A DNA stretch of 64,000 bases. Source: Candidatus Binatia bacterium (GTDB lineage: Bacteria > Vulcanimicrobiota > Vulcanimicrobiia > Vulcanimicrobiales > Vulcanimicrobiaceae). The DNA lies in the NCBI GenBank assembly GCA_035544215.1, contig DATKHY010000001.1, forward strand, positions 248,001 through 312,000. Direction: 5' to 3'. The position numbers and the translations under genes are program-made. This document shows positions 19,820-50,204 of the stretch, in pieces (position 1 is the stretch's first letter; each line of letters starts with the position of its first letter). The notes under the pieces are model-generated. The model was not told the origin of the DNA. It searched no databases and saw only the letters and a program-made list of their open reading frames with translations.

Positions 19820-20308
19820 TCATTTTGGGGGCGCAACCGTGGTGGCTTCGCAAAGGCGCAGTGAGCCTTTCGCATTATGCAGGCTCACCCACAATCCACC
19901 ACCGTCAAGACGTCGTCCTACGATTATGAGAAGCAGGGCTTGAAGTCCGTGCTTCGACTTGGCGAACGCCGATGTCATCGTGGTGCGATCTCTTGCCGAA
20001 GGCGATGGGTGACCAACCGGATGAGTGTGCCACTCCCCAACGTAGTGAAGACCGTGCTGGAACCGTTCATCGATTGTTGACTGCGCACCGTTCAGGTCAA
20101 TCTCGAAGTAGTTGCTGCCACGTCCGTCCTTCCGGTTGGGAATTGTTGCCTCGACGATGTGGATGGCGTCTTGTCCTATCGTGGCGAATAATAGACCTCC
20201 GGCCTCGTTGAAAAATGGCCACTGCCGGTGACGCCGCATTACTGATAGCGCTGCATCGCCGATCACGACGCGTCGGCTAAGGCCGGGGTGCCAGAATGCT
20301 CGTGGCAT
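19820..20308 (-). CDS. cap3: CBASS Cap3, JAMM-type isopeptidase
   Basis: A 162-aa protein; ATG 20308 shares one base with the Cap2 stop (TAATG). Catalytic JAMM residues are all present: E35 in FFNEAGGLL, and H94, H96, S104 and D107 in the run from GEWHTHPVGH to PSPSARD. By analogy with deubiquitinases it removes the CD-NTase from targets and limits priming. A longer upstream frame exists but lies inside Cap2 coding sequence. Confidence 0.92.
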   Translation of the reverse strand: MPRAFWHPGLSRRVVIGDAALSVMRRHRQWPFFNEAGGLLFATIGQDAIHIVEATIPNRKDGRGSNYFEIDLNGAQSTIDERFQHGLHYVGEWHTHPVGHPSPSARDRTTMTSAFAKSKHGLQALLLIIVGRRLDGGGLWVSLHNAKGSLRLCEATTVAPPK

Positions 20309-22086
20309 TACGCTGCCGGTTCCGCACACGCCGGGCATGTTCTCCACTCGTCTTCGTAAATGCCGCCACTGGTAGGTGGCTCGCCGTGCACCTCGACCCA
20401 CTCTTTCCGTAGCGTCCCCCCGTGCGCCGTCCTAACATGTTCTGGGCCGAGCCACGACCATAGCCTGGACCGCACCGGTTTCGCTGCTAACAGGTCTAGG
20501 ATGACGCGTGCCACAAAGGCCTTTGCGGGCAAAGCCTCTATCTCGGAATACGGCTGCCAGCTTGTCGAACAGCCCGGTTCGAACCGATGTGTAGGTCCGT
20601 TCCAGTCGGTGATTGAGTGCCGAAAGACGCCGAACTCATCGCATCCACACCGAAGGCAACCGTCGCCCTCGTTGAGCGCGAGCACTCGGGCGGCAGCGGC
20701 AAATGGCTCGAGCCAAGCGAACAGAAGTGATGGAAAGTTAGCGGTCGCTATCGCAGCGTCGCTTAGTTGGATTTCGTCGGCGGCCTCGCCGGTCGTCGAA
20801 ACGACAATGTCCGCGTCGAGTAGCACGCCGGGATCCCGTTCGTACGTTACTTGCCAAGGTTCGAACTGAGCCCCGATTGTAACGTTTGGAAAGTCACGCC
20901 TGATCGTTTCCGCCAAGGCCTTCGCCTTGGATCTGCCGACGTACCGACCGCCCAGCTCGTGCCTTGCAATGTTTCCCCACGTGAGTAGGTCCGGATCGAT
21001 CAGCGTCAGATTTGAGGCGCCTGCTTTCACGAGCAAGCGCGCAAGGGTGCTCCCCAACGAACCGCAGCCGATCAGGACAATCCGGGCAGACCGTATTGCG
21101 CTGTTGCTACCATCACCGCCGCGATCAACAAGCCATGCTACATCAGCACGGTCAACTCTAACGTTCTCGATCGCCGATTCCGGAGAAAAGAAGTACGGCG
21201 CTGCAACGTGTCCGGGGGCCTTCCCTTTTCGGAAACCTGGCGTGCCGAGTCCCTTAGGCTGACCGACCTTTTGCTTCTCGGGCCTTCTGACCCACGCCCC
21301 GAGAAGTGCGCCGCCGCCGGCCGCGTCCGTGATCCCGATCAGGACGGGAGCTGAAATGGGATCGCCGGCAGCAAGTGATTCGACGAGGGTCATCTGGTCC
21401 GGGTGTTTCTCCTGGAACCACTCGTAAAGCGCTCTACCATTACTCATTTTCACCGGGAATTCGATGTTCGCCGAAAGGAGAACCGAGTGCTTAACGGTTG
21501 GGTTCGTCGAGTTGGAATACTGGCGTACCCACCGCTCGACGTCCTCGCGCGTGTCACCGATCAGGGTAAACGGTAAGTCGTTCGAATAGAACACTTCCCT
21601 TGCAGCGGCGTTGACTTCGCAGATCGAAACGATGCTTCTGCTACTGCGGGAACCCTTCCAGTAGTCGACGATTTCCTCAGCGTTGCGAGCGGCGTAGTCC
21701 TCGCCTTCACCTTCGAGCAACGCTCTAGTTCGACTCAGCAGGTCGTCAAGGACGCGCTCGTCGTCGTTGAGCGAATGCCCTTCATTTCCTTTCAACAAGC
21801 ACAGCGTGCTGTTCACGAAGACGCGAGACCGCGGAATGTCTTGCCGCAACGGAGCGACGCCGATCTGTGCTCGTCGATAAGGATAGTCCGGCCCGAGCAG
21901 CACGTCGACCTCGTGGTCGTCGTCTAGTACGATTCGCCAGCCGGCGACGACATCGGAGTCGGGGTATTGACGCTGGAGATCATCTTCCCTTAGCCAGCGG
22001 GGAGAAAGGTTAGCCTCCGACAGATGCCGCTCGACGCGGGTCAGTTTTTCAGCCGGCAGCTCTCGCTTAGCCGTATCGCCGCTCAC
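20308..22086 (-). CDS. cap2: CBASS Cap2, E1/E2 fusion ligase
   Basis: A 592-aa protein. Residues 20-150 are an E2-like domain with the probable acceptor C96 in FVNSTLCLLKG. Residues 330-560 are a ThiF/E1 adenylation domain with the ATP loop GCGSLG (340-345), the IDPDLLTWGNIARHELG motif and the E1 cysteine C506 in RFEPGCSTSW. Zinc-type cysteines appear at 477-482 (CLRCGC) and 584-587 (CPAC). It would adenylate the CD-NTase C terminus and transfer it to targets. It overlaps the CD-NTase gene by 20 bp. Confidence 0.93.
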   Translation of the reverse strand: MSGDTAKRELPAEKLTRVERHLSEANLSPRWLREDDLQRQYPDSDVVAGWRIVLDDDHEVDVLLGPDYPYRRAQIGVAPLRQDIPRSRVFVNSTLCLLKGNEGHSLNDDERVLDDLLSRTRALLEGEGEDYAARNAEEIVDYWKGSRSSRSIVSICEVNAAAREVFYSNDLPFTLIGDTREDVERWVRQYSNSTNPTVKHSVLLSANIEFPVKMSNGRALYEWFQEKHPDQMTLVESLAAGDPISAPVLIGITDAAGGGALLGAWVRRPEKQKVGQPKGLGTPGFRKGKAPGHVAAPYFFSPESAIENVRVDRADVAWLVDRGGDGSNSAIRSARIVLIGCGSLGSTLARLLVKAGASNLTLIDPDLLTWGNIARHELGGRYVGRSKAKALAETIRRDFPNVTIGAQFEPWQVTYERDPGVLLDADIVVSTTGEAADEIQLSDAAIATANFPSLLFAWLEPFAAAARVLALNEGDGCLRCGCDEFGVFRHSITDWNGPTHRFEPGCSTSWQPYSEIEALPAKAFVARVILDLLAAKPVRSRLWSWLGPEHVRTAHGGTLRKEWVEVHGEPPTSGGIYEDEWRTCPACAEPAA

Positions 22087-23077
22087 CGTCTCGGATGCTG
22101 CGGATCGGTGACGAGCTGGATACGATGCCGGTGATGCCGATTGCGGCTGCTGACTCCTTGATACGATCGGTGAAGTATGTCGTCCGGAAGAAAGCGTCCC
22201 AGGCGCTTGCAGCTTTCGCGGCGTCGCAATCCGACCCGTCGAGAACGCTTAGGTTCGAAAGCAATGACGGTGCTTTATCGCGGAAGAACTTGGTGCGCGT
22301 ATCGGCATCGCCTTGCGTCACGTATTCGTCCACAACCGGGTGCTTGATCTTCAGACTGTTATCGAGGCGATCACGAATCTTTCGCAACGTCTTGACAAGC
22401 GAAACGTCGTCGCGCTGGTCGGGGACGTAGCATTCTACTACAAGAATGGAGAACATGAACCCGGTTGGCGCATTCCAGGAATCGCGGCTCTTTCCGAGTG
22501 CCTTAAGGTACGCGACGATCCGGCGCATCTGGAGGTCGTCGGAGTTATCGGGGCTTCGGTTGGTGACCTTGCCTTCGAACCAGTCGTTCACACTCGCGGG
22601 GTCGGACTTTTTCCAGTCGGCGCCGGCGAGTTCGAGATACGTCGTACCAAATAGGTTCTGCTTCTCGCGATAGACCGGAAGATCCACGTGATGACCCGCT
22701 TCGTAATGAACCCGTACGCAATTCGTCCTCACTTCCGGTGCGGTTTTGAAGGAGCCGTCGTCGACGGCATCGCGCACCATCTTACGAACGTCGAGCGCAC
22801 TCATAGCCGCGCCTTGCGAGCCTATCAGATCGGCGGCCTCGAAGATCACGCCATTGTCGATGTCGTAGTCGTTTTTCGGATGCTGGACGACCGTGTGCAT
22901 GGCATAGCCGCCCTGGACTTGGAAGCGCTTGACCTTCGGTCGCCCCTGGTCGGCAAGGCCGTCTTTCAGCCGGGTTTCGTTCGTCTTCCGGTGGTCGCGC
23001 AGGAGCGTCCGGGTCGCAGAGTCGATCGCGACCTCCGCACGGTAGAACTTGAGCAGGTTTTTCGAGCAGTCGTACAT
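22067..23077 (-). CDS. CBASS CD-NTase (cyclic oligonucleotide synthase) with GG instead of GS
   Basis: A 336-aa protein from ATG 23077 with TGAGGTGG upstream; the longer frame upstream is not credible. Nucleotidyltransferase motifs: VQGGYAMHTVV (56-57), D72 and D74 in NDYDIDNGVIF, and D132 in HHVDLPVYRE. CD-NTases normally have Gly-Ser at the first motif; here it is Gly-Gly, confirmed in the DNA (GGC GGC). The clade and product cannot be set by eye. The C terminus ends DGERRYG, a Gly end fitting Cap2-dependent conjugation. Confidence 0.9.
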   Translation of the reverse strand: MYDCSKNLLKFYRAEVAIDSATRTLLRDHRKTNETRLKDGLADQGRPKVKRFQVQGGYAMHTVVQHPKNDYDIDNGVIFEAADLIGSQGAAMSALDVRKMVRDAVDDGSFKTAPEVRTNCVRVHYEAGHHVDLPVYREKQNLFGTTYLELAGADWKKSDPASVNDWFEGKVTNRSPDNSDDLQMRRIVAYLKALGKSRDSWNAPTGFMFSILVVECYVPDQRDDVSLVKTLRKIRDRLDNSLKIKHPVVDEYVTQGDADTRTKFFRDKAPSLLSNLSVLDGSDCDAAKAASAWDAFFRTTYFTDRIKESAAAIGITGIVSSSSPIRSIRDGERRYG

Positions 23078-23657
23078 GCTGGCACCGTACCACCTCAGAA
23101 TGCCAGCAGAGTGGCATGGTGGCCGGACACTCCCTGGTGACCGCCCCTTTCCCAGGCGATCTTCCCAGCATTTTAGCAGAAGCGACAGTGGAGTGCTAGA
23201 TATACTCGAACGTATGTGCGCTGCGGCGGTGGTGCCGGGGGTGTGAACGGCACCACCGTGACCGAATTTGGTGCCCTGAGTCTGCCCTCGATGGGACAAG
23301 GGGCCGGAAAGCGATGTCATCGAGATGATGGCTCGATAACGAGGAGCCTCCTTTCATCTGCGAGTTTTCAGACGATTCGGCTCGGGTGCGCCCCGACCAT
23401 CGGTCGCGGCCCTCCGTTGCGGCGCCGCCCGCTGGCGAGGCTACCACCGGCGCCGCTCCGCGTAAACGCTTCCCCTCGGCTCGCTGCGCTCGGCGTTGAC
23501 GCGGAGCCTCTGCCCCGGCGGTGACCGCGCCGCGCGGCAGCGCCGTGTCGGGCCGCCAACTGATTCGGCGTCGAACGGCTTGACGGCCGACGATGCGGCA
23601 GCGATAATTGGGGTGTAAGCGCACACATGACTTTCGCCCGCATAATTATGCTGGTGT
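23078..23657. other. Spacer between CBASS and the coupling-protein operon
   Basis: About 580 bp between the divergent CBASS and type IV secretion operons. It must hold both promoters, but no strong -35/-10 pair stands out. A GC-rich part (23430-23540) has short palindromes such as CTCGGCTCGCTGCGCTCGG. No gene seen. Confidence 0.4.
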
Positions 23658-35353: not shown

Positions 35354-36052
35354 ATGTTCGTTAGTCAGGCCGTGCTCGTGCTGTTGCTTTCGCTTGCATT
35401 TGCTCTGTTTGCGATAGCGTCATTCGCCAGCAGTACCCAAGTAAGGACAAGCAAGCGTACGCTCCGAGTGATGGCGTTTGCTCCCGCGATCGTCGTCATA
35501 GGATGTGCGGCTGTCGCGAGCGGCCTGCGCTTTAATTTTACGCCGAGCGTGCCGCTCGGAATCTATCGCCTCGCTCCGATACCTCAGAGTGGAGTTCAGC
35601 GCGGCTCGTTCGTCGCGGTGTGCGCGCCTCTCGATGCCGCTGAGCTTGGCCGGCGCCGCGGATACCTTGCCGCGGGACCTTGCCCAGCCGATACCGAGTT
35701 GCTCTTGAAGGTTGTCGCCGCCGCCACCGGCGACTCGGTTGTGGTCTCGGCCAGCGGAGTGGCTGTCAACGGATGCCTTTTGACGCATAGCCGGGCGCGC
35801 TCCCGCGACGCCGCTGGGCGCCGGCTTTCCCCGTGGCCTCACGTCCACTTGGAGCTTCGGCGTGGCGAACTCTGGCTTTACGCCGCCAACGATCGAAGTT
35901 GGGATTCCCGCTACTGGGGTCCGGTATCGATAGGCGATATCAAAGCCGAGGGAACTCCACTGCTCGTTTTCCCTAGCGTGTTCCACAGGGGAGATCCGCG
36001 CTGCGGTCTCAACGACTTGGTTCTTCCCGTTCATCGCAGCGGCCACGAGTAA
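35354..36052 (+). CDS. traF: TraF-like S26 conjugal signal peptidase
   Basis: A 232-aa membrane protein with two N-terminal membrane helices, then peptidase S26 motifs: TPSVPLGIYR with nucleophile S65, LLLKVVAAATGD with general base K119, and VNGCLL. In IncP plasmids TraF matures and circularises the TrbC pilin, which fits its place at the end of this trb operon. It ends 28 bp before a convergent gene. Confidence 0.88.
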   Translation: MFVSQAVLVLLLSLAFALFAIASFASSTQVRTSKRTLRVMAFAPAIVVIGCAAVASGLRFNFTPSVPLGIYRLAPIPQSGVQRGSFVAVCAPLDAAELGRRRGYLAAGPCPADTELLLKVVAAATGDSVVVSASGVAVNGCLLTHSRARSRDAAGRRLSPWPHVHLELRRGELWLYAANDRSWDSRYWGPVSIGDIKAEGTPLLVFPSVFHRGDPRCGLNDLVLPVHRSGHE

Positions 36053-36080: not shown

Positions 36081-38420
36081 CTAACGGAGATACCTGTAGT
36101 CGGTATTTCGTGCCATATCGCTAAGCGTGAACGGATGACGAACAGGCGAATCATCGTCACGCGTGTGCGGCTCGTAAGACTCCAACTCACGATTGGTCAA
36201 TGCAACGATCGGTATCCATTCTGCCTTCAGGCGTTTGAAGATTTCGATTTCCGAATCGGCAAACTCGTCCGAAGCTTTAGCAAACACTAAGAAGCAGTCG
36301 ATTCCCACATCCCTTAGCTTCTTCCATGCCGCCTTTAGCGGATGAACTTTCGCATCGTCAATGCAACCAGCTGCTTTGGCTTCACCCAGGCCAAGTTCGA
36401 TATGATCGCCGTACTTGTATTGTAATACGCAAAAATCAATCTCGACGGCGGGAACCTCGAAGTCAAGATCGAGTGCAGTGGTAAAGCACGTCTCGGCATT
36501 GTGCAGGGTCGCGTTTAGCCACATCAACGCAAGCACGACGGGGACGAAGCCCTCCTGGTTGTTGTCTCTGGCAAACAGTCCCGCTCGGACGAATGCCCAC
36601 ATTTTCTTGATATCCGTCCTACTAAATGCAGCGCGTAAGACAACTGGGAGGTAGACCTCATAATCGCAATACGGGCAGGTCCATCGGCCTTCGAACGCTT
36701 TCACCTTTACTTTTGAGGAAAGTCCACATTTGGTACAACTTAACCACTTTCGTTCTCTCGCAAACCGTCGCTTCAACTTCGGAACGAAAACACGCTTTTC
36801 GATCAAAGCGTTGAACACGTCGCTTGCCGTTAGCTCGCTGCCTGCCTGACCCGCGAGATGGAGGTTCTTGAACTCGTCAAAGCGGTCGCCGCCGATGGTG
36901 CCAAGCGCCGATTCTAAGCTCACCTTTTCGGAGGCTGGCGTATCTCTTAGTAAGTTCCGCGCACCACGAACCTTAAAAACACGACCTGGCTCGAAGAATT
37001 CCGTGCCTCCAAGTTTTTCAATAATCCGAGAGGCCATTTTCCCGGGTAGACTCGGCGTGGCTGTAATACCAGCAAGGGCGAAGATTCTTTCTACGATCTG
37101 GTAGCGCTCAATCGGGAATAGGCTGATGCTGCTCTCGTCGGCGTCAATGACCTGCGCGATGCCTTCCTTCTCGCATCGCAATGCCCACGGATCGAGAGCC
37201 GCTTGACGACTGTAAAACTCGTTGAGTCTTCGAATAAGCGGCGGGCGCAGCGTGCGATCTGGGTAGTCAAACTCAGTCAGCGGCTCGACGGACACCATCA
37301 GGTGCTGCTGGCTCGTATGCGGATGCTCCAGGCGATCATCGTCTACGAGAAATCGCCGTTCAGGAAGCGCGAACGAGACCGACGGCCGGTTGTACCTTCG
37401 ATCTACGCTTGCCAACACACGGTGCCGCTCAAACTGAATGCTCGACGGCTTGATATTAAGGCCATTCCAGATCATCGGGTCAACAGGCGCGAGCACTTTC
37501 TCACGAGCCGTTTCTAGCGCGCTGATGAACGCTGTCGCTTCCTTTCTGTAGACGTCTCTTGAGTGAACGCTGAACTTTGCGGGCAGAAATGGCCCAGGCG
37601 GATCGGGCTTTAACGAAGCAGCGAAAGCTTTGATGTACGCTTCGAACCGGCTCTCGTACCCCAATGGATAGAACGCTAGCGTCGCGCCAGACGCGCGAAG
37701 GTTCCAAAACGATACGAGGTCCTCGAAAGACGCCGGATCGCCGACATAGACGCCGGAGTTCCAGCGATCTCTCACGGCTTCGACATACATAGACGTGAAT
37801 CGGATCGGAGTTATGTTGTGAATCAAGCCAGGATTGAGGGCGCCTCCCGCGTCAATCGCTTGTTCACTTCCGCGAAGACCCCGAACGAAGGCTCGGGGAA
37901 AATCAATTCTTAGGTTATAGCCGCCTGGAAAGAAGCCGAACATGGTCGCAAAAAGATTGGCGAGCGGATCGTGCGCGTCCCAGCGCATCAAGCGCGCATG
38001 ACTTGTTTCATCAGGCGGTATGTCTTTGATCTCTTTTGTCCAGCACAGGTTAATCGCGTGTAAGACATCTAGGCACGAAATGCCATGTTTGTCTGAGTGC
38101 CAATCCTGAAAGAGCAATCCCATGCCATAAGGGTGCATGAAAGATAAAAAGCGATTCGATTCAACGAGGCGATTTATCTCAGCGGTTTCAGCCAGCGGGA
38201 ACAGCACATCGACGTTAAAAAGGTCGATTAGTCCTTGAGCCGACTTGGGATCGTTTGAGACCGGGCTGATTGGGCAGTAAACTCCGCCCCAAAGAAGCGT
38301 AGCGAGCCCAACGGCCTTAACGAGGTCGTCAGTAGAACCATCGGGCACAAGAAATGCGCCTCGGATCGGCCTGTACCGCGCGGTACAATCGACGGTGGCC
38401 ACGCTATTTCTAAGACCCAC
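36081..38420 (-). CDS. Large protein with zinc ribbon and PD-(D/E)XK-like C terminus
   Basis: A 779-aa soluble protein. Residues 1-550 match no family I recognise. A zinc ribbon is formed by C562, C565, C582 and C585 (CTKCG, CPYCDYEVYL). From residue 659 the sequence VEIDFCVLQY, then LGLGEAKAAG, gives the Asp and Glu-x-Lys of a PD-(D/E)XK nuclease (D662, E680, K682), followed by a predicted strand FLVFAK. It lies between the transfer operon and other defence-like genes, so I infer a single-gene anti-phage nuclease. Codon use is like its neighbours. The target is unknown. Confidence 0.6.
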   Translation of the reverse strand: MGLRNSVATVDCTARYRPIRGAFLVPDGSTDDLVKAVGLATLLWGGVYCPISPVSNDPKSAQGLIDLFNVDVLFPLAETAEINRLVESNRFLSFMHPYGMGLLFQDWHSDKHGISCLDVLHAINLCWTKEIKDIPPDETSHARLMRWDAHDPLANLFATMFGFFPGGYNLRIDFPRAFVRGLRGSEQAIDAGGALNPGLIHNITPIRFTSMYVEAVRDRWNSGVYVGDPASFEDLVSFWNLRASGATLAFYPLGYESRFEAYIKAFAASLKPDPPGPFLPAKFSVHSRDVYRKEATAFISALETAREKVLAPVDPMIWNGLNIKPSSIQFERHRVLASVDRRYNRPSVSFALPERRFLVDDDRLEHPHTSQQHLMVSVEPLTEFDYPDRTLRPPLIRRLNEFYSRQAALDPWALRCEKEGIAQVIDADESSISLFPIERYQIVERIFALAGITATPSLPGKMASRIIEKLGGTEFFEPGRVFKVRGARNLLRDTPASEKVSLESALGTIGGDRFDEFKNLHLAGQAGSELTASDVFNALIEKRVFVPKLKRRFARERKWLSCTKCGLSSKVKVKAFEGRWTCPYCDYEVYLPVVLRAAFSRTDIKKMWAFVRAGLFARDNNQEGFVPVVLALMWLNATLHNAETCFTTALDLDFEVPAVEIDFCVLQYKYGDHIELGLGEAKAAGCIDDAKVHPLKAAWKKLRDVGIDCFLVFAKASDEFADSEIEIFKRLKAEWIPIVALTNRELESYEPHTRDDDSPVRHPFTLSDMARNTDYRYLR

Positions 38421-39087: not shown

Positions 39088-39813
39088 CTAGTCATTGGCG
39101 ATCCTATTTGGGTTAGCATCGAGCCAAGCGTAGACTTCCGGGCGCAACGTCGTTTTGCCGTCTTTTATTCCAAGGCCGAGCGCGTGCTTTACGATCTGAA
39201 CGGTAGCTAGAAAACACTCAATGGCATCCTCCGCCGCCGTCGCGGCGGCCGAAGCGTCAACGTGAAGATGCCGGTTTCTTATCTTGCGAACGCGGTCAAA
39301 TAGTGCCTTTATGTCCGGTGTAATAAGTTTTGCCTTTGCGAGGAACTGGACGCGCTCAAACTGGGTCATCTTTTGGAACGCGTCGCCCTTGAAATACTTG
39401 GCAAACTCCGGCTTGATCTTCTGGCACTTGCGCTTGGGTGCACAGTACGCGTTGGCCGCATCGAAGATAAATATCGCGCTCATCTCGCAGACGGTGCTGC
39501 ACAAAGCGATCGTCCCGAGATAATTGCCCAAGGCATAGCTGCCCTTGGCGTAGCGCAGCGGCCAAACCAGCATCTGCAGCACCCCACGCGGCGCGATGAA
39601 AATGCGGTCTTTGCCCTCCTCGCTGATTGCCAAGAATCGCTTGATAATTTCGTCACTTGAGGCGTCTAGGTGCGGCTCTACGAGATACCGGAGAACGTCG
39701 GCGTCCTGGACCGGCTCACGGTCTGGGAGAAGCGTCCAGGGCTCCTCGACCTCATGGAAGGCAAGTGGGTTGATGTACCCTTCGATCAGTCGATCTGGCG
39801 TCTCGTCGGCCAT
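39088..39813 (-). CDS. HEPN-domain protein, second gene of a two-gene unit
   Basis: 241 aa from ATG 39813; a GTG at 39852 would add 13 residues and overlap the upstream gene. The C-terminal half has the HEPN RNase motif Rx4H in KIRNRHLHVD, flanked by helices (FERVQFLAKAKLITPDIKAL; IECFLATVQIVKHAL). A hydrophobic helix (YALGNYLGTIALCSTVCEM) precedes it. HEPN proteins usually cleave RNA in toxin-antitoxin and abortive-infection systems. The partner directly upstream is the nuclease-like protein, so I infer a two-gene defence unit. Confidence 0.6.
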   Translation of the reverse strand: MADETPDRLIEGYINPLAFHEVEEPWTLLPDREPVQDADVLRYLVEPHLDASSDEIIKRFLAISEEGKDRIFIAPRGVLQMLVWPLRYAKGSYALGNYLGTIALCSTVCEMSAIFIFDAANAYCAPKRKCQKIKPEFAKYFKGDAFQKMTQFERVQFLAKAKLITPDIKALFDRVRKIRNRHLHVDASAAATAAEDAIECFLATVQIVKHALGLGIKDGKTTLRPEVYAWLDANPNRIAND

Positions 39814-39833
39814 GAATGGGACGCTCTTCGCTT

Positions 39834-41546
39834 CTAGGCGCTCAGGCCCCACGATCTGGTAGTGGTAATGATTTCATCGTACCAGACCTCACCGAGCCCC
39901 GGCCATTGAACAGAGTTAGCTCGATCACGAAGTGGATGGTCGTAGATCGCGAGATAGTTCTTAAAACTGCTCATCGTGATCCACGGAACAGGTTGGTTGA
40001 GTTTACGGGCAAGAACATCCGACACTAAGCATCCAGCCCGACACAGGCGCATCAGTAGGTCAAAGTCCTCGGCGCTAAAGAGTTCGAACTGTTCGCATCC
40101 ATGGAGATAGCCTTCGGCCTTAATGGCGTCGAAGATCATTTTGTTGAACGCGAAGAACCTAGGCACGGAAGCGATAATGAGCGCAGCCGGGTAGATTCGC
40201 TTGAGGCGGCCCGGATCGATCGTATTTCCATCGTCGTCCCGGTATACAAACTTCCCAGAACGAAACGCCGCTATAGCGCCCGTCATCTGCTTCGCGTTGC
40301 CTACGATCTTTCTAATGTCTTTGGTGATCGAGTCCCGATCTAGCTCGACCAGCGTTGTCTTCATTGTGAGGCGAGCGGTAGCAATGTCGATAAAGACGGC
40401 GTTCTCACCCTCGATTATCACGAGGTCGGTCGATTTTGAGCCTTTTCCGTACGGCTGCTCGCCAAAGACGAACTGCGGCGTGCGATGCGCCTTCTTCGCC
40501 ATATCGACGCATCGTTGCTCAAAAAAGTCCGCGAAGAACTGGGTGAACCTCTTTGATCGCGTTCGGTCGCCACCATCTGCTTTGTTGTAGCCGTCGAGAA
40601 GCGCGAAAAATAGCCCCCCACCAATCTTGTTTTCGAGAAACGGGGGGTGAGGCGGAAAGATGACGTTTGGCTGCACGCTGATGAACGGTCGCTCTAAGAG
40701 TGCCTCCAGCGACAGCCCCGAGTAGCGAAGAGTCGATCGCCCTTCAAACTGGGCTTTTGCGTCATCGATGGGCATGGTGTTCAGTGCGAGCCATTTGCGT
40801 GCTGGCTCCTGGTTCGAGAGCGGCTTGAAAAATGTATCGATATCGAGAAATGGGTTGTACCTTTGCAGATCGGCGACGGAGTAAATCTGCTGGTAGTATG
40901 AAAAGAACATAAACGCCGCTGCGGCGTACTCTGGGTACGTCAGTCCGTAAAATTGCGCGAAGTCAGCGTTCGCGTCAAGGTAATGCTTGTTCGCCTTTGC
41001 TACGTCGGTCTGCGCCCATTTGAAGAAGCGCCAATACAGGTCGATGAGAAAAGCGACGTTTTCTTTCGTGCTGAAGGTATTCCTAAGCTCAACCGTCAGG
41101 GCGGCCGACTTCGTGTCCGTTAGATCAACGCCCTCAAGTCCACGCAAGGAGTTGTAAGCCAGCATCACCCGTAGGAGTCGGTCGGTGAAATCTGAGGGGA
41201 GCGGCGAACCCTCTGGCTTGCAGTACTGTATTGCAAACTTCTGCAGGACGGCCATTTGTTCGGCCGTGATAAAGGTATTCTGCGGCACCAACATATCGAC
41301 AATCCGGGTGGCATACGGATTACCAGCGCTTAGCTCGCGAACGACGCCCTTCTGAAAATCGAAGAAACTGCTGCCTTGGAAATTGGAGACCATGATCCCT
41401 ACCCCGCAAAAGAAGCGCAGGGCTTGGTCCAAAGGTATATCGGAAAGAAATTGCTCAATATCGCTATCGCGGGCCTTTTGACAAAAGACTCGCTGATAGT
41501 TGATATAGGTCCCATACTCGGGCGGCTTAAAGGGCTGGCGCTGCAT
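39834..41546 (-). CDS. Degenerate PD-(D/E)XK-like protein, first gene of a two-gene unit
   Basis: A 570-aa soluble protein. Residues 330-400 keep the layout of a restriction-endonuclease-like fold: RSKRFTQFFADFFEQRCVDM (E343), then the Gly-rich GEQPYGKGSKSTDLVIIEG (D374), then the strand NAVFIDIATARL. The expected Glu-x-Lys is Asp-x-Ala (D387, A389), so activity is doubtful. The helical N-terminal 320 residues are unfamiliar. It precedes the HEPN gene with only 20 bp between stop and ATG. It may act as sensor or neutraliser for the HEPN RNase. Confidence 0.55.
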   Translation of the reverse strand: MQRQPFKPPEYGTYINYQRVFCQKARDSDIEQFLSDIPLDQALRFFCGVGIMVSNFQGSSFFDFQKGVVRELSAGNPYATRIVDMLVPQNTFITAEQMAVLQKFAIQYCKPEGSPLPSDFTDRLLRVMLAYNSLRGLEGVDLTDTKSAALTVELRNTFSTKENVAFLIDLYWRFFKWAQTDVAKANKHYLDANADFAQFYGLTYPEYAAAAFMFFSYYQQIYSVADLQRYNPFLDIDTFFKPLSNQEPARKWLALNTMPIDDAKAQFEGRSTLRYSGLSLEALLERPFISVQPNVIFPPHPPFLENKIGGGLFFALLDGYNKADGGDRTRSKRFTQFFADFFEQRCVDMAKKAHRTPQFVFGEQPYGKGSKSTDLVIIEGENAVFIDIATARLTMKTTLVELDRDSITKDIRKIVGNAKQMTGAIAAFRSGKFVYRDDDGNTIDPGRLKRIYPAALIIASVPRFFAFNKMIFDAIKAEGYLHGCEQFELFSAEDFDLLMRLCRAGCLVSDVLARKLNQPVPWITMSSFKNYLAIYDHPLRDRANSVQWPGLGEVWYDEIITTTRSWGLSA

Positions 41547-42247: not shown

Positions 42248-43015
42248 ATGACAAAGAAGTTTTTCCCGACGCTAGGAGACTCAGTTGTGGCTCGTCCTCG
42301 CCTCAATACAAAGGCAACGGCTGGTTTGGATCGTTATCAGGTTCTTACGCGCTATCTTGCTGATCGAAAGTTCATCGATCTGGTTGGGACGAGCAGCCTG
42401 CGCTTCGCGAGGTTGCGACTTTTACTAAAGAACGACCCGGATGAAGGCCGCATCGCGACGAGCGCCTACCTCGACGCCTCAGCTATGGTCGATCCACCAA
42501 ATGGCATGCCACGAGATCAGAACGCCTATTTAGAGTTTTTGAAAGTAGGGCCGCACGAGCAAGCCTATATTTCCTGTTGGTATATGGGCGGACCCGATTC
42601 TGATCGTATGTGGGGGGAGTACGTTCCCGATGGTGAAGGCGTGGCCGCATCGACCACTGTTGGGCAGCTTCTTGATTGCTTCGACGGTGATGATGGCATT
42701 AAGGTCGCGTCACTTGCGCCTATTCGGTACATCAAGCCTGACGCGGACATGCCTGCACTCATGGATCGAGACAATTTTGTGGCCGCACTGCAATATAAGG
42801 GTGACAACTTCAAGCACGAAAACGAGATGCGAGCGATCATCCTTTATAATACGTACTACATCTCGGGCGTGCTCCCAATCTTTGGTGAACGTCTACCCAT
42901 CGTCAATGACGCTTTCATAAACAGCATTCGTATTGCTCCAAACGCGACCGACAAATACCAGACGCACGTTCGCAATGTTCTGGAAAACACGCCCCTGGAG
43001 AAGCGAATCGGGTAA
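42248..43015 (+). CDS. DUF2971 family protein
   Basis: A 255-aa protein. DUF2971 signatures: the early LVGTSSLRFARL and DPDEGRIATS (matching the usual FNDPFE region), CWYMGGPDSDRMWGEYVPDG (usual MWxxY), and NFKHENEMRAIIL (usual K-x-W-x-x-E-x-E-x-R). The family is frequent in defence islands and some members act as abortive-infection components, but no activity is established. It stands alone at the right end of the defence island. Confidence 0.75.
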   Translation: MTKKFFPTLGDSVVARPRLNTKATAGLDRYQVLTRYLADRKFIDLVGTSSLRFARLRLLLKNDPDEGRIATSAYLDASAMVDPPNGMPRDQNAYLEFLKVGPHEQAYISCWYMGGPDSDRMWGEYVPDGEGVAASTTVGQLLDCFDGDDGIKVASLAPIRYIKPDADMPALMDRDNFVAALQYKGDNFKHENEMRAIILYNTYYISGVLPIFGERLPIVNDAFINSIRIAPNATDKYQTHVRNVLENTPLEKRIG

Positions 43016-48178: not shown

Positions 48179-49612
48179 TCAGGCCGCAGCGCCAGGCTTC
48201 AGCTTCTGGTCAGTGTCGACGTGAAGGCCCCCCAACTCGACCGAGACGGCCCGCGCGATCTTGTTCTGCTCTTCCACGTTCGCCCTACGAAATATCTGCG
48301 CTCCGCGACGAATCAACGCCTCAGCATCGCGCTGTTGGCTTGTGGCAGCCTTCGCGATCGCAAGCTCTTGCTGAACCGCAACAATTCGATCTTGTATCTC
48401 GCCTCGTTCCCGATTGAGAGCATCTAGGCGCTCTTGCACATCTTCGGCGCGCACCTTGCCCGCGGCATGCAGCTCCCAGGCGACGCCGCGCTTACGCGCG
48501 AGTTCATCGAGCCTAGCCTTCTGATCCTTAAGCGTGCGTTCGAGAAGCTGAGGTGACGTAAGAGAACGCCGCCTATGGCGTTCGATCAGTTTCGGGGAAG
48601 CCCGAAGGCGACCGAGTAACGCGACAAACTGTTCTTCGAGCTTATCGGCTCGAACGAGGCGCAGCCGATCATCGTGGTTCCAACGAGCACGGCATGCGTA
48701 GTATCTGTATCTCCATGGCTCGATCCCGCACGCCAGCCCGAGCATTCCGCGCCCGCAGTAACATCGCAGCGAACCGGCGAGTGGCCATGGATATCGGCGG
48801 CGCCGGTCATGTTTGCGATCGTTCGCAAGGAGGGCGGCAGCTTTCTGCGCTCGCGCAAATGTGGCTTCGTCGACGATCGGCCCGATGTATGCCCTATTCA
48901 GCAGAAGCTTCCTGACGCGAGTGGGCGTCCAATTCACAACGCGAGAGTTTCCATTAACGTATAGGTGTGGCGGCGCGATTGCGGTTAGGCGTCGAGCTAT
49001 AGTCTCCAGCCCCTTACCTTGCAAGCGGAGTTTAAAGGCTTCGCGAACGACCGGGGCCCGCTCGCCGTCAATGAGGCATTTGTTGTTCTTATAGCGCAGG
49101 CCGTACGGAGCCTTACCCATGGGCTCGCCAGCCTCGCGTTTGCGGCGGCGGACTTCCCGCATCTTATCCCGGCGGACATCATTTTCGTGACGGGCGACGG
49201 CCAGCGTAGCGGCGGAAATTAGCTCGTCCATTGCCGAGTCAAGTTTTACCTCGCCCTGGTCCCGCGTAAAGACAGAAACACCCAGGTCATGCAGGTCGCG
49301 CAGCACGATCTGAGACTCGACGATCGAGCCGCGGCCGAGCCTGTCGGCCCGGATCATGAGGAGCCGGGTTGGCCTAGCCTCCGCATCGAGCGCCCGAATG
49401 TCGGAAAGCAGGTCGTGCACGATGCGGCGGGGGCCAGCTTTGCCGGTCGCGACGCCCTCGATAATGCGGCTAAGCCGCCAGCCCCGCATCGAGGCGACCT
49501 CTTCGCCCCAGGCGCGCTGATGGGGGAGCGTCTCGGATTGCCCCTCCGCACTCACGGCGGCGAGGAGCCAAACTGAGGGCCCTTTGGCGACCGGTGCACG
49601 CCCGCTGTGCAT
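48179..49612 (-). CDS. Large serine recombinase (site-specific integrase)
   Basis: A 477-aa protein from ATG 49612 (GTG 49624 also possible). Resolvase-type catalytic domain with the nucleophile Ser in LAAVSAEGQS, DRLGRGS and the arginine-rich helix of the active site; then a recombinase domain (KAPYGLRYKNN, GLETIARRLT, VNWTPTRVRKLLLNRAYIG), a zinc ribbon (CYCGRGMLGLACG, YYACRA) and a C-terminal coiled coil (RTLKDQKARLDELARKRGVA). Such enzymes integrate phages and conjugative elements. Its 5' end abuts the gene at 49611, so the attachment site probably lies near 49.6 kb. Confidence 0.9.
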   Translation of the reverse strand: MHSGRAPVAKGPSVWLLAAVSAEGQSETLPHQRAWGEEVASMRGWRLSRIIEGVATGKAGPRRIVHDLLSDIRALDAEARPTRLLMIRADRLGRGSIVESQIVLRDLHDLGVSVFTRDQGEVKLDSAMDELISAATLAVARHENDVRRDKMREVRRRKREAGEPMGKAPYGLRYKNNKCLIDGERAPVVREAFKLRLQGKGLETIARRLTAIAPPHLYVNGNSRVVNWTPTRVRKLLLNRAYIGPIVDEATFARAQKAAALLANDRKHDRRRRYPWPLAGSLRCYCGRGMLGLACGIEPWRYRYYACRARWNHDDRLRLVRADKLEEQFVALLGRLRASPKLIERHRRRSLTSPQLLERTLKDQKARLDELARKRGVAWELHAAGKVRAEDVQERLDALNRERGEIQDRIVAVQQELAIAKAATSQQRDAEALIRRGAQIFRRANVEEQNKIARAVSVELGGLHVDTDQKLKPGAAA

Positions 49613-50204
49613 GCGCTTTACCACCGCCGAAGTGTACCACCCCTATGCTACCCCAGTCTACTACTACGGCTCGAAGTGGAATAGCATGGCGTCTCAGCCG
49701 GATCTGCTCAACTCCGATTCTTTCGCCGGTGGATTTCAGATCTCGACGCAGGCGACGCCGCCGAACGCCAAGGGCGTCACGTGGAACCAATCCGCGACCG
49801 TCTCCCTGAACAACGGCGCCACGACGATCGAGATGAACAATCAGGGCGTGCCGACGATCACGAGCTACGGCCAAAATATGTCGATCGCGCGGGGACAAAC
49901 CGTGCAGCTCGGCGACGGCGAATCGGTGACATGCGAAGAGAACGGCTCGTTACGCGTCTGCGCGCAGAACGGCACAGGCGGCCGGATCGACACGACGCTG
50001 ACGGCGCACGGAGACGGCGTCAACGTCGACGTGACCGCGCATGACGTCGACCTGGGCGGCGCTTTGGTCAACGGGCTCGAGCGGCGCCGCGATCCGGATC
50101 CGCAACCAGTCTCCGGGCCGATCATCTCGAATCCGATCTTGCGGCCGTACACCGTGGCGCCGATCGAACAGCAGCAGCCCCCGCCGGACTATCCCGGGAT
50201 ATAG
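49611..50204 (+). CDS. Hypothetical protein, possibly 5'-truncated by integration
   Basis: 197 aa from ATG 49611, which overlaps the recombinase start head to head; ATG 49686 is another option. The protein is beta-rich and polar: VTWNQSATVSLNNGATTIEM, MSIARGQTVQLGDGESVTCE, LTAHGDGVNVDVTAHDVDLG. There is no signal peptide and no ribosome site, although its composition suggests a secreted or structural protein. I infer that integration removed its normal 5' end. Confidence 0.5.
   Translation: MRFTTAEVYHPYATPVYYYGSKWNSMASQPDLLNSDSFAGGFQISTQATPPNAKGVTWNQSATVSLNNGATTIEMNNQGVPTITSYGQNMSIARGQTVQLGDGESVTCEENGSLRVCAQNGTGGRIDTTLTAHGDGVNVDVTAHDVDLGGALVNGLERRRDPDPQPVSGPIISNPILRPYTVAPIEQQQPPPDYPGI

Follow-up and report, generated by a model that had tools for sequence, protein, structure and literature searches.

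GapS1 is a named anti-phage protein family, a single-protein defence system that acts alone. A GAPS1-like gene has been described in the phage of NC_049448 (PMC12774648), and the prophage protein gp49 of this accession, our control P0005, scores 393 bits against the NCBIfam model NF047931 (antiphage_GapS1), above the curated cut-off of 320 bits. Known HEPN families are mostly RNases; they figure prominently in abortive infection and in operons with restriction-type nucleases (PMC3710099). The gene pair described here, like the HEPN/MNT system (HepT/MntA), places a HEPN RNase candidate beside a possible regulator, but its partner protein A is a nuclease-fold relative of GapS1 and has no nucleotidyltransferase match.

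In the window, the stretch of 64,000 nucleotides that was analysed, genes A and B are both intact ORFs on the same strand, B lying downstream of A (Table 1). A first-pass annotation made from the sequence alone had described this layout, a 570-aa ORF followed 20 bp downstream by a second one, and the coordinates are exactly as it gave them. The scan called no promoter-like or terminator-like site within the 20-bp gap, which for this type of scan is weak evidence, and the alternative in-frame GTG would make B overlap A.

Table 1. Features of the A-B locus and of the element around it, in window coordinates.
Feature	Position	Strand	Remarks
Cap3/JAB-like ORF	19820-20398	-	
ThiF/Cap2-like gene	20308-22083	-	
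DncV-like CD-NTase	22070-23320	-	
TraF-like S26 peptidase	35354..36052	+	last transfer gene before cargo
779-aa protein	36081-38420	-	zinc ribbon (CxxC...CxxC), D...GEAK nuclease-like C-terminus; no Pfam match
Gene B, 241-aa predicted HEPN-fold protein	39088..39813	-	ATG start; GTG at 39852 possible
B HEPN motif R179-NRHL-H184 (RX4H)	39262..39279	-	conserved in homologue
A-B intergenic gap, 20 bp	39814..39833	-	no terminator-like sites called
Gene A, 570-aa protein assigned to GapS1 superfamily	39834..41546	-	ATG start; helical N-terminal half and PD-(D/E)XK core at about residues 329-457
A D387-I-A389-T-A391-R392	40371..40388	-	Asp kept, Ala at +2 and +4, clade-invariant Arg
A Asp374, first active-site Asp of PD-(D/E)XK core	40425..40427	-	from alignment
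A Glu343, acidic residue of core helix (FFADFFE)	40518..40520	-	from alignment
255-aa protein	42248-43015	+	PADLOC PDC-S31 (2e-11), weakly DUF2971
Large serine recombinase	48179-49624	-	resolvase and recombinase domains

Searches with A gave no useful match in Pfam, PADLOC or PHROGs. Against NF047931, A reached 17.6 bits (E 0.0014), below the cut-off, and fails family membership on score. Its relatives come closer: among the ten A-like proteins from the phylum Eremiobacterota that form alignment A1, six gave a GapS1 match with E no higher than 1 (best E 2.3e-22), the best-scoring relative attaining 79.5 bits against the required 320. A small alignment anchored on P0005, one of whose members is a low-scoring Eremiobacterota relative shared with A1, aligned with A1 in hhalign at 99.9% probability (E 5.6e-34) over 347 columns. 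A displays the significant colinear profile homology, nuclease core included, by which we delimit a wider GapS1 superfamily. Because of this colinearity, and given 17.6 bits against 320, A is on profile evidence a distant colinear member of that superfamily, outside the curated family. A and GapS1 share the position of the PD-(D/E)XK core within the 347 colinear profile columns and their occurrence as mobile-element cargo, but differ in sequence (the profile alignment gives about 13% identity), in the active site (D-x-K in GapS1, D-x-A-x-A-R in A) and in the HEPN gene that comes next at the A locus.

The AlphaFold2 model of A (pLDDT 82, pTM 0.82) shows the PD-(D/E)XK core fold in the C-terminal half, as a helix at 329-353, strands at 359-361, 375-379 and 382-388, a helix at 404-429 and a strand at 450-457. 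Structural alignment retrieved Nt.BspD6I, FokI, Can2, Bse634I and HindIII at Z 7-9, the nearest folds being the BspD6I subunits and FokI (Z 9.2 for N.BspD6I, 8.8 for FokI). Foldseek with the same model returned no match with E < 0.001 against the PDB or viral models; the fold call follows the Z values of the structural aligner. Sequence searches of the PDB with the A and B profiles gave no match. Upx (9wuf) was considered as kin of A and rejected, 382 residues being aligned but with an rmsd of 9.2.

The active-site positions of A are E343, D374, D387, A389, A391 and R392. True GapS1 proteins, P0005 (FIDAKG) and a Pantoea homologue among them, carry D...D-x-K, whereas A has no D-x-K, and the catalytic Lys expected of a PD-(D/E)XK nuclease is missing, with Ala389 at +2 and Ala391 at +4. 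A single-base read error does not explain D-x-A, since changing Ala to Lys requires two base changes. In the clade of A, the residue at +2 after the acidic position is V, T, N, C, R, M or A, and most members show E/D-x-x-x-K-R, with Lys at +4 and then an invariant Arg ('FIEVTAKRF'). The +4 Lys is kept by 8 of the 11 other full-length clade members; both Lys are absent from A and from the other three (Thr in G068 and G069, Ser in G119). Since positions 0, +2 and +4 share one strand face, the catalytic Lys looks to have migrated from +2 to +4 in this clade. Model and alignment thus agree with the first-pass annotation that A keeps a PD-(D/E)XK layout with Asp-x-Ala in place of Glu-x-Lys. The Lys loss stands, but E/D-x-K, the motif of FokI-type enzymes at the place of D-I-A in A, was not the apt reference motif for a clade whose usual Lys sits at +4, where A lacks it too.

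A might nevertheless be an active nuclease with a rearranged site, formed by E343, D374 and D387 together with Arg392 or a Lys supplied from another position, in which case B would be a second effector or a regulator. Every acidic position is indeed kept, Lys migration is evident in the clade itself and Arg392 is invariant there. However, Ala occupies both strand positions (+2 and +4), and Arg392, at +5 in a beta strand, should point away from 0, +2 and +4; we regard an active A as unlikely.

The RNRHLH motif reported for B was confirmed, and R179 and H184, the two key residues of the HEPN RX4-6H motif, are both conserved in its only homologue (on L024). The RX4H string by itself is present in half of 230 local proteins and hence carries little weight. 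DUF4145 (PF13643, a HEPN family) matched residues 153-200 of B, over the motif, at E 0.0018 and 18.8 bits, below the Pfam gathering score of 23.1. Marginal HEPN-type matches in PADLOC (E 0.009-0.04) overlap the same stretch, as do weak PHROGs matches. The model of B is weak (pLDDT 57); in structural alignment HEPN proteins, HepT toxins and Csm6 among them, match it best, with a top alignment of Z 8.6 to 2hsb, a range (Z 8) that helical bundles reach easily. Searching the PDB by sequence with B alone gave a chance-level match only. As profile comparison of small alignments found no link between B and DUF4145, the assignment to HEPN is based on the motif, the hmmscan match and the fold, which support a HEPN fold short of proof. 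B resembles DUF4145-like HEPN proteins in its RX4H motif, in the HEPN structures that best match its low-confidence model and in the weak match on the motif, but differs in falling below the Pfam cut-off, in N-terminal 90 residues without known relatives and in having a single homologue found. Altogether B is very probably a HEPN protein that has diverged but keeps its motif intact.

The A-B pair is cargo of a conjugative element, and around it lie genes for a relaxase, VirD4/TraG, VirB4, TrbI and a TraF-like peptidase. In G068, as a parallel to the present element, a GapS1-like gene likewise comes first among the large ORFs downstream of a TraF-like gene, which suggests that this spot is a cargo site of the element family. 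Further defence-like genes flank A-B within the cargo zone. Only G003 encodes a full-length homologue of the 779-aa protein (68%), and there a GapS1-like gene lies about 4 kb away. Between the relaxase and VirD4 genes, the three genes at 19820-23320 (minus strand) form a type II CBASS-like locus, and the serine recombinase is a candidate integrase of the element.

A-like sequences were found in 15 of the 149 Eremiobacterota genomes and B-like sequences in two, with A and B adjacent in the present window only. G060 carries an A-like and a B-like gene, on different contigs; its B-like protein (on L024) is 50% identical to B and has a different neighbour. The first-pass annotation had called for a co-occurrence analysis and would have given up the coupling if the genes did not occur together elsewhere; the one homologue of B in the 149 genomes of the phylum is not beside an A-like gene, which for the exact pair within this set is largely that outcome. 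Searches by tblastn gave no match for A in the plasmid and phage collections, nor for B or two relatives of A in the plasmid collection; A and B had no match in viral contigs, and searching genome contigs with alignment A2 returned only the known Eremiobacterota copy of the B homologue.

At 9209-10323 of L024, an ORF truncated at the contig end overlaps the B homologue and follows it; it has TIR-/deoxyribosyltransferase-like letters (DLTLHNANVAVEFGIA). By eye this ORF is Rossmann/TIR-like or nucleoside-deoxyribosyltransferase-like, and may represent a second HEPN pairing.

The partners of A-like genes vary. In G068 the close same-strand neighbour is a DUF5677 protein (PF18928, E 9.5e-7); in G069 a 647-aa protein with RNRLVH lies upstream on the same strand; in G060 a 199-aa same-strand protein overlaps by one base; in G009 a 338-aa protein comes first, followed by a 431-aa protein with RSRASH; and in G030 the neighbour resembles a uracil-DNA glycosylase by eye. 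The remaining A-like genes have small ORFs or no close same-strand neighbour beside them. Taken over all A-like genes, most lack a HEPN-like partner. R[NS]xx[LVAS]H, a stricter form of the motif, occurs in 4% of the 230 local proteins and is mildly informative, but it was picked after inspection. A HEPN, DUF5677 or HEPN-motif neighbour accompanies three of the four Lys-less members (A, G068, G069) versus one or two of the eight Lys-keeping ones; Fisher's test finds no significant association (p 0.067 or 0.22). In profile comparisons against DUF4145, DUF5677 and B, the neighbours of other clade members were not supported as HEPN proteins.

Our preferred, though tentative, reading is that A-B is a two-gene anti-phage module of abortive-infection type, carried by the conjugative element and composed of a GapS1-like sensor or regulator and a HEPN effector. 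A, as a diverged GapS1-like protein that has lost the catalytic Lys of its nuclease core, would most likely be the sensor or regulator, and B a HEPN RNase that it restrains or recruits; once infection is sensed, B would cut RNA and the cell would be stopped. We infer here the physical and functional link between A and B, the direction of control, the RNA target and the phage trigger. In favour of this module are the shared strand and the 20-bp gap without a called terminator-like site; the GapS1 profile match of A with its PD-(D/E)XK fold and Lys absence at +2 and +4; the motif, DUF4145-like match and HEPN-like model of B, read with published HEPN roles (PMC3710099); the transfer-gene element that also holds the CD-NTase/ThiF locus; and the operon-like HEPN, DUF5677 or RNRLVH neighbours of three Lys-less members. 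Against it, the exact pair was seen once and the other copy of B has a different neighbour, HEPN-like partners are lacking beside most A-like genes, the association of Lys loss with a partner is not significant and profile comparison does not prove the neighbours to be HEPN, the model of B is of low confidence, and A could stay active through the clade-invariant Arg392 or some other residue. That GapS1 itself works alone also speaks against pairing.

The same single-protein nature counts for a possible, if somewhat doubtful, alternative, in which the element has a hot spot where two independent single-gene defence cargoes have stacked up, A being a stand-alone GapS1-like protein and B standing alone or otherwise partnered. 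The unrelated Rossmann/TIR-like ORF adjoining the B homologue, the many A-like genes without a partner and the other defence-like genes of the cargo zone all fit such stacking; the shared strand with 20-bp spacing does not, and the loss of both Lys positions suggests that A alone is no nuclease. Moreover, the 149 genomes hold few DUF4145 and DUF5677 genes (28 and 18 matches), so that their presence beside A-like genes would be unexpected under uniform scatter and pure-chance adjacency is unlikely, with the clustering of defence genes uncontrolled in this comparison. A strict toxin-antitoxin pair, with B as RNase toxin and A as proteinaceous antitoxin without phage sensing, is quite improbable. 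It would suit the adjacent genes, the HEPN toxin type and the catalytically degraded partner, and the antitoxin-upstream order fits but is non-specific; yet A, at 570 aa, is very large for an antitoxin, and its profile is GapS1-like with no sign of an MNT nucleotidyltransferase. Accounts of A-B as a coupled sensor or antitoxin with a toxin, as first annotated, gain from the operon-like spacing and defence-like setting but find no coupling beyond one locus in the 149 genomes of the phylum.

Comparison with the defence catalogue PADLOC-DB 2.0.0 gave no model match for A and for B marginal HEPN-type matches only. The initial view that the locus matches no named system holds for the exact pair, which has no catalogue match, but not for A, which already belongs to the superfamily of a named protein as a catalytically degraded GapS1 relative; its pairing with a HEPN effector is plausible. 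More broadly, and with rather little probability, the GapS1-like clade may have moved its Lys from +2 to +4 and then lost it several times (the poorly resolved clade tree does not allow the losses to be counted), passing the effector role to exchangeable partners, HEPN here and DUF5677 or other HEPN-like proteins elsewhere, as a modular sensor with an outsourced weapon. If so, a stand-alone defence nuclease would be seen becoming the sensor for an unrelated RNase under its control, offering a direct view of the origin of a multi-gene defence system, and A would be a naturally catalytic-dead GapS1 relative useful for separating sensing from killing.

Other GapS1-like genes of the phylum were noted in passing. 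In G030, the ORF that by eye resembles a uracil-DNA glycosylase (L018 9650-10303, 217 aa) runs across the stop of the GapS1-like gene. G127 holds a second GapS1-like gene, apparently split over two frames, at L050 6741-7862 and upstream, and short GapS1-like remnants occur in G016, G070 and G115.
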